A stretch of 64,000 bases of DNA from Jiella pacifica (GTDB lineage: Bacteria > Pseudomonadota > Alphaproteobacteria > Rhizobiales > Rhizobiaceae), in contig NZ_JAAAMG010000015.1 of the NCBI RefSeq assembly GCF_010500815.1, positions 62,001 to 126,000 of the forward strand, in the 5' to 3' direction. The notes below the pieces were generated by a model. It was given only the letters and a program-made list of their open reading frames with translations, was not told where the DNA came from and did no database searches. Shown here one piece after another: positions 16,487 through 20,005 of the stretch (position 1 is its first letter; each line of letters starts with the position of its first letter). A program made the translations under genes and the position numbers.

Positions 16487-18436
<1,950 letters not shown>

Positions 18437-19650: not shown

Positions 19651-19774
19651 CGAGAGCCGGAATTCAGGGGGGCTGAACCCAGCCGGGAGAGCGGTTGGTC
19701 AGCCGCTGGACGAGCATCGACTATCCGCCAAAATCTCAACATTGCGCGAAGCTGACGAAAATTGCGGCAGGCTC

Positions 19775-19803
19775 TTGCGTTGCCTGATTCTGCGCACCAT
19801 ACT
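19775..19803 (+). promoter_or_regulatory. Candidate promoter of the 25-aa peptide gene
   Basis: TTGCGT and CATACT are separated by 17 bases and lie about 38 bp upstream of the peptide start codon. Spacing and position fit a housekeeping promoter, with a short leader of about 30 bases. The hexamers are not perfect, so the assignment is tentative. Confidence 0.45.
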
Positions 19804-19824
19804 CTTCCTCGTGTTCAACGAAGC

Positions 19825-19839
19825 GAAAGGAGGTGATCC
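19825..19839 (+). promoter_or_regulatory. Exceptionally extended Shine-Dalgarno
   Basis: GAAAGGAGGTGATCC is complementary over 15 bases to the 3' end of 16S rRNA (…GGATCACCTCCTTTC). Most genes in this window pair 4-6 bases. It ends one base before ATG 19841, so the SD spans almost to the start codon. Confidence 0.85.
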
Positions 19840-19840
19840 A

Positions 19841-19918
19841 ATGTCGAGTGATTGTCTGAAGCCGGTTGGGTCTTTGATTCTCGGTGTCACGATGGAGCAG
19901 TCTCCTCGCTTCGCCTAA
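19841..19918 (+). CDS. 25-residue peptide with full-length anti-SD complement (unknown)
   Basis: Small ORF starting MSSDCLKPVG, with a middle SLILGVT and ending MEQSPRFA, then TAA. Function is not recognised. Support for it being real is contextual: a plausible promoter at 19775, an SD complementary to 15 bases of 16S rRNA, and a strong intrinsic terminator 55 bp after the stop, making a self-contained unit of about 200 bp. The peptide has a single Cys at residue 5 and a short hydrophobic middle (SLILGV), too short for a membrane span. It could be a translated small protein, a leader peptide for regulating the transcript, or a small RNA whose SD-like element titrates ribosomes. Confidence 0.6.
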   Translation: MSSDCLKPVGSLILGVTMEQSPRFA

Positions 19919-19973
19919 GAATTGCAGACGCCGACAACGGTCTCTGACGACCGCCGGCTGATGCCCATCACGG

Positions 19974-20005
19974 GGCCGCTTTCCTGACAAGGGAAGCGGC
20001 CTTTT
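19974..20005 (+). terminator. Intrinsic terminator of the small peptide unit
   Basis: GGCCGCTTTCC pairs with GGGAAGCGGCC (11 bp, one G-T) around the loop TGACAA, followed by TTTT. It is one of the strongest hairpin-plus-U-run terminators in the window. Confidence 0.88.

Follow-up and report, generated by a model that had tools for sequence, protein, structure and literature searches.

A short RNA gene of Jiella pacifica with a Shine-Dalgarno sequence matching the whole 16S rRNA tail, and its relatives in Alphaproteobacteria

Why does a reading frame of 25 codons carry a Shine-Dalgarno (SD) sequence that pairs with the whole 3′ tail of 16S rRNA? The locus lies in a 64,000-nucleotide stretch of Jiella pacifica DNA, analyzed at its full length and called the window here. 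The first-pass annotation had described a compact unit whose SD greatly exceeds what one peptide needs and had offered a ribosome sponge, a translation reporter, or the leader of a regulated unit as its role. The compact unit was borne out. It spans positions 19774 to 20003 of the plus strand, on which all of its features lie, and holds promoter-like hexamers, a leader, the SD, the open reading frame (ORF), and a terminator in that order. Its fold beats 200 of 200 dinucleotide shuffles (z = −3.2).

The docking site and its surroundings

The SD GAAAGGAGGTGATCCA (19825 to 19840) is a perfect complement of the host’s own 16S 3′ tail, as read from the 16S gene of the same genome (locus L002), and it is 16 nt long rather than the 15 first counted. 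The 25-codon ORF MSSDCLKPVGSLILGVTMEQSPRFA (19841 to 19918) follows directly, from an ATG at 19841 to 19843 to a TAA at 19916 to 19918, and its start and frame are kept in relatives. An intrinsic terminator of 14 pairs, then TTGATTG, closes the unit (19972 to 20003), in agreement with the strong terminator of the annotation. Upstream of the SD, a conserved A/C-rich leader GTTCAACGAAGC (19813 to 19824) is the probable 5′ end region of the RNA, and transcription probably starts there; in up to 131 relatives found by our covariance model, this leader has an A at −7 in 95% and an A at −3 in 81%. A promoter is plausible at 19774 to 19803, where CTTGCG (19774 to 19779) and CATACT (19798 to 19803), 18 nt apart, can be read from the sequence, and the layout repeats in genus members. 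This part of the annotation held only partly, however, since a generic sigma-70 scan called no site at the element and, by loose rules, just 65 of 139 relatives have both hexamers.

The pairing with 16S rRNA stands out at every scale that we considered. A search of the 5.77-Mb genome for the 15-mer, with up to one mismatch, returned nothing but this site and the antisense strand of the 16S gene. At −30.6 kcal/mol, the SD was the best partner of the 16S tail among 127,964 windows covering both strands of the 64 kb; the next separate site reached −21.8 kcal/mol, and the mean of all windows was −5.8 (standard deviation, 2.7). Within the class, 26 of 289 genomes carry the exact SD-plus-NTG pattern, and none carries the reversed control. 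Genome uniqueness, pairing-energy rank, and the reversed-pattern control together rule out a chance origin of the SD.

The docking site also looks selected for 16S pairing when its substitutions are followed through the family, because these mostly keep the pair, as 16S pairing predicts. Of 65 SD changes inferred across 131 model-found RNAs, 52 preserve the pairing by G-U and 13 disrupt it; at SD positions 2 to 12, 22 of 26 preserve it. The tree was built from the RNA itself, which makes these event counts approximate. For positions 2 to 12, the binomial probability of so many pair-keeping changes is 5e-11 against an expectation of 0.23, which, like the 0.25 also used, is our own assumption. 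At the five G sites within positions 2 to 12, where no wobble is possible, we found one change among the 131 sequences. Left out of this set are L220 and L229, three RNAs whose start lies one base off, and six whose SD contains an additional A. A guide for 16S processing was considered as well and rejected: complementarity ends at about the mature tail, and just ahead of the SD the sequence does not extend the match into the 16S trailer. That comparison was made by eye between L001 and L002 of one genome, with the mature 3′ end placed where we take it to be.

Family members, neighbors, and look-alikes

We aligned 25 RNAs of the window’s type (alignment A1) and built a covariance model, R1, from them. 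With E values up to 0.001 accepted, R1 matched 42 of 61 relatives; at order level it found 171 of 297 genomes, and at class level 71 of 289. Conservation of the SD-terminator layout in relatives, which had been set as a test, was thus found in 171 of the 297 order genomes; the other 126 have no member detected by R1, being either without one or with one that escaped. These counts are lower bounds, since the stricter filters lose weak matches. R1 also includes the SD and start and could overlook members whose SD is absent or strongly altered. In the other direction, some class-level matches, counted by E value, cover only 25 to 41 genome bases. Matches come one per genome, except for G012, whose two lie at C1:805101-805258 and C1:2921947-2922080.

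The sequences examined differ in how they were obtained. For the order, we picked 80 stretches by eye to spread over its groups and added 30 further loci; at class level, the start region was read in 5 of 30 loci, and the start of L345 is shifted. The model-found set of 140 is partly dependent on its sources, with 13 RNAs identical to A1 rows and 26 identical to pattern-found loci. The exact SD pattern of the first searches is present in 61 of the 140 and absent from 79, and the 172 loci found by pattern include plainly other genes, e.g., L089 and L142. By these sequence matches, the window unit is a member of a large RNA family that is widespread in Alphaproteobacteria.

Rfam already files one branch of this family, judging from sequence homology, as the caulobacter sRNA CC2171 (RF01867). 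The window matches that model at 34.0 bits (E = 1.7e-05 on 601 bases) against a gathering cut-off of 75, and no hit in the window reaches gathering level. Among 19 family loci, 18 match RF01867 at an E value of 0.05 or less, and 4 reach its cut-off, namely L013, L015, L019, and L023. R1, built without these four, scores them at 44.5, 45.7, 27.0, and 40.2 bits, respectively. Homology of the window unit to accepted RF01867 members is therefore found through intermediates, while its direct score stays below the gathering cut-off. CC2171 was the only convincing Rfam family in the window, and the 19 relatives gave one further match, to a Brucella sRNA model and far under its cut-off.

The genes around the unit bear on whether it is a leader. 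An acetyl-CoA synthetase gene (16487 to 18436, plus strand) lies near the unit, the upstream neighbor encodes a metallo-beta-lactamase-fold protein (plus strand), and the downstream neighbor encodes a PRC-barrel protein on the minus strand. Around the window’s relatives, 10 loci have the lactamase-fold gene and 11 have an AMP-binding (acs-like) gene, and neighborhoods recur within groups. A transcription attenuator or leader of a downstream gene would fit the order of a short ORF, a structured region, and a terminator. However, by heuristic gene calls just 45 of 105 loci have a co-directional gene after the terminator, no constant gene follows, and the next gene in the window is on the other strand. 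We consider this reading highly improbable, and the suggested leader of a regulated unit is likewise unsupported.

Loci of the Rhodobacterales type have one ORF cluster upstream (34 loci) and a second that is mostly downstream (33 loci); one fragment of each was tested, giving Vut_1 for the upstream and RF-1 for the downstream cluster. The RF-1-domain ORF, e.g., at L029, is downstream and on the same strand in 31 of 33 ORF rows. It is presumably ArfB-like, and a link to ribosome rescue is possible.

Outside the Alphaproteobacteria, the SD and start pattern with up to one mismatch occurred in 21 of 150 Phycisphaerae genomes, the known center genome included, and the reversed control was not found. 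Of the 21 sequences read, 17 have an ORF of 6 to 19 codons, a different upstream part, and in many cases, by eye, a terminator-like hairpin; L318, L332, L337, and L338 do not fit the layout. L319 to L331 and L333 to L336, from the class of G618, show a tail-long SD, a GTG, and an ORF often with GACTGTA..AGGGGCTGC. To the eye, these look-alikes also have a GC-rich hairpin upstream, a terminator-like hairpin, and a helix across the ORF end that seemingly changes on both sides. The resemblance may reflect shared ancestry or convergence. Of 143 Gammaproteobacteria genomes, 2 carried the pattern, including the center genome, which had been chosen for its match.

A few stray units use similar parts. 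At L094/L340 (SAR92 cluster) and L134, a terminator-like hairpin lies about 30 nt after the SD and a GTG, and the frame reaches it without meeting a stop, which gives these units the look of a non-stop mini-mRNA. L071 (Lujinxingiaceae) and L088 (Myxococcales) combine the SD with 15-amino-acid ORFs of the form VxxxCxYTAGEVVxF and have a second SD-like stretch within the ORF. At L084 (Azospirillum), L121, L135, L060 (Geminicoccaceae), and L012, ORFs of 57 to 59 amino acids with signal-peptide-like N termini follow this SD and start; the 5′ part of the RNA has possibly been reused there to drive a protein.

Reading frame, peptide, and helices

All 142 distinct model-found loci that we read have an ATG or GTG at the start, shifted by one base in three. 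In the 140 that were counted (105 ATG and 35 GTG), the first in-frame stop always falls at codons 14 to 33, and the other two frames are interrupted by a stop ahead of codon 14 in 73 and 103 of these RNAs. L220 and L229, which the locator missed and which are outside the 140, fit the start and stop range too. The pattern held in 130 representatives from the model-found and pattern-found loci, whose ORF bodies share less than 70% identity: all 130 reach their first in-frame stop at codons 14 to 33, compared to 36% of shuffles. A stop within nt 18 to 60 occurs in frame in 3 of the 130, off frame in 63 and 28, and in 37% of shuffles. The Rhodobacterales type is nearly stop-free in all frames (0, 2, and 1 of 35) and is therefore uninformative on this point.

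If the 14- to 31-amino-acid peptide were the product, with the SD giving high expression, this conserved start, frame, and length would be expected, as would strings such as VSRxxLERGVGT or MSSDCLKP, which some clades retain. The substitutions argue otherwise. Counted from codon 7 onward in 53 close and independent pairs, pN/pS was 0.84 in frame and 0.85 and 0.76 off frame, and changes were spread evenly over the codon positions (76, 93, and 85). From codon 2, the values were 0.77 in frame against 0.90 and 0.73, leaving room for a weak constraint on the N terminus of the peptide. Moreover, the P3 motif described below is read in another frame in 7 of the 83 RNAs with this motif in the ORF. Conservation of the start, frame, and stop region was thus found and purifying selection on the amino acids was not. 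The pN/pS values and the P3 frame changes rule out a peptide gene as the main reading, and we hold a small-protein gene in general to be quite improbable. The reading frame looks selected, and the peptide does not. A frame kept with no constraint on the peptide is most simply explained if ribosomes have to initiate here and translate to about codon 25, with the peptide free to drift.

RNAalifold, unprompted, placed a long-range helix (P1), an inner hairpin (P3), and the terminator on A1. P1 pairs the start of the ORF with the strand directly 5′ of the terminator; in the window, its 5′ strand is at 19848 to 19855 (ORF nt 8 to 15, codons 3 to 5) and its 3′ strand, which abuts the terminator, is at 19964 to 19971. 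P3 is the hairpin GGAG-CAGT-CTCC within the ORF (19894 to 19905), whose CTCC arm can also face the SD. In the 25 chosen RNAs of A1, P1 and P3 cells were paired in 81.5%, compared to 69.0% after shuffling, and covariation was 0.447, compared to 0.240 in shuffles (0 of 500 reached it) and at most 0.168 in slid controls. A1 comprises 25 of the 49 MSS-type loci; some loci with odd layouts or misplaced terminator calls were left out, and the omissions include L003, L007, L033, and L049, where P1 fitted poorly, so this test leans toward structure.

A permutation test of P1 that involves no choice of loci gave the same answer in most groups. Own partners beat permuted ones in the 49 MSS-type loci (z = −7.3; 0 of 5,000 permutations), in 44 VSHC-type loci (z = −4.3; 0 of 5,000), and in 16 other loci (7 of 5,000), and the test was null in 35 Rhodobacterales-type loci (2,015 of 5,000). 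Compensatory changes across the aligned sequences thus support both P1 and P3. In the window itself, P1 has five contiguous pairs and one more, and the minimum-energy fold of this single sequence pairs the 3′ strand of P1 with GUGAU of the SD, not with codons 3 and 4.

The body of the RNA carries a weaker complement of its own SD, with mean z values against shuffles of −1.34 (102 RNAs), −1.05 (38 RNAs), and −1.79 (35 RNAs). For the window RNA, SD-to-body pairing amounts to −14.3 kcal/mol, compared to −28.4 kcal/mol with the 16S tail. One candidate partner, P2, is TTGGGTC at 19866 to 19872, a 16S-tail-like element that can pair with GATCCAA of the SD and start. With related sequences included, the corresponding GGATC-like element is fully paired in 152 of 259 RNAs, compared to 33% after shuffling. 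Where SD position 16 is A, the facing base of the element is T in 55, C in 14, G in 27, and A in 13; where it is G, the counts are C 22, T 10, G 2, and A 2 (Fisher’s test on T and C, p = 4e-06, related sequences again included). These associations are suggestive of P2 pairing between the SD or start and the body.

An enrichment of anti-SD-like sequence in the body is also what a base-pairing, dual-function sRNA would show, in which exposed segments such as CCUCC, located in P3 or close to the terminator, bind target SDs and the ORF controls their exposure. An A/C-rich 5′ end and a terminator fit sRNAs of the Hfq type. Anti-SD loops are known in other rhizobial sRNAs (PMC3927594). We saw no conserved single-stranded seed across the clades, however, and regard this reading as decidedly unlikely.

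The ribosome sponge of the annotation is stronger. In this reading, translation is a side effect, and all that the long SD does is sequester 30S subunits, for instance during starvation or in stationary phase. The 16-nt pairing and its G-U-tolerant conservation agree with it, and the P1 core, which begins at ORF nt 8, would hinder accommodation of the mRNA. Yet a sponge needs no open frame, and the kept frame and stop position are left unexplained; a single gene per genome would also have to be expressed very highly to titrate ribosomes. The sponge survives as a rival that we consider unlikely.

Favored reading and known systems

We favor a free-standing, translated, structured RNA that acts via ribosome capture or occupancy, and we judge the chances for and against it to be about equal. 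The sponge misses the frame, the small protein misses the absence of amino-acid constraint, and the leader misses a constant target gene. The comparative sequence evidence backs the family, selection for 16S pairing, P1 and P3, the kept start and frame, and the unconstrained peptide. From these we infer transcription and translation in the cell, an exchange between two forms, and an output.

In the proposed mechanism, the unit would encode a structured, free-standing RNA about 190 nt long. Its 5′ arm would base-pair with the single-stranded tail at the 3′ end of mature 16S rRNA and in this way capture 30S subunits. Once bound, the ribosome would initiate at the ATG or GTG and translate the short ORF, the product being irrelevant and ribosome occupancy the working step. 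An initiating ribosome would cover the SD and the 5′ strand of P1. Since this strand is within the initiating footprint, P1 and initiation should be mutually exclusive, and P1 and the weaker internal anti-SD pairing would form only while ribosomes are not loading. Loading of 30S would then open the RNA and a shortage would close it, a switch that could report or buffer free initiation capacity. Candidate outputs are a 30S decoy, altered RNA stability, or the release of a pairing site. The translation reporter of the annotation comes close to this ribosome-gated RNA.

More broadly, and with more doubt than assent on our part, this might be a class of RNA genes that use translation but not its product. 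Such a small mRNA would capture the 16S tail, keep its frame open just for ribosomes to pass along it, and gauge or buffer the free 30S subunits; the class would be widespread in Alphaproteobacteria and have a look-alike in Phycisphaerae. It is an open question how free ribosomes are sensed in cells, and the routes known so far mostly run via small nucleotides and proteins. If the reading is true, pairing with the whole 16S tail, a weaker internal copy of that tail, and a frame kept without its peptide would make this RNA a direct RNA gauge of free ribosomes. It also follows that conservation of an ORF alone is no proof of a small protein. Model organisms exist in these clades, which makes the reading testable.

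CC2171, which a Caulobacter paper of 2008 reportedly describes, shares with the window RNA the common 5′ block CGAAAGGAGGUGAUCCAGUGUC and the terminator, and it is filed in Rfam as an sRNA gene. The part of the Rfam 15 paper at hand gives one additional covarying pair for it. In the openly licensed literature, as covered by titles, starts of abstracts, and passages and including the sequence GGAGGUGAUCC, the 16S complement, the ORF, and P1 of the CC2171 family are undescribed; that the 16S complement and ORF are new to the literature is not thereby proven. Likewise, the available parts of Bradyrhizobium and Sinorhizobium meliloti sRNA papers hold no clear counterpart of the unit, and those of a survey of coding sRNAs (PMC5521070) do not mention it.

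Three described systems come nearer. In the accessible text on Mesorhizobium huakuii, where 19 annotated sRNAs were detected by sequencing, MH_s33 has a table row with RF01867 and a second coordinate set of 215 nt, taken to be the RNA-seq product (PMC5596092). MH_s33 is a family member by this listing, and that text contains no study of its function or of an ORF (PMC5596092). The rnTrpL RNA of S. meliloti resembles the window RNA as a short sRNA with a translated ORF, in its case of 14 codons (PMC10117765, as far as available). However, rnTrpL is leaderless, stems from the trp attenuator, and makes a functional peptide, whereas the window RNA has a tail-long SD and an unconstrained peptide (same portion of PMC10117765). 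Finally, the extended SD–anti-SD pairing of Staphylococcus aureus indicates, in the part of the report available, that ribosomes can hold a longer-than-usual SD duplex (PMC13009471). There, the extension amounts to two extra pairs on ordinary mRNAs (PMC13009471, same part), whereas the window RNA offers 16 contiguous pairs.
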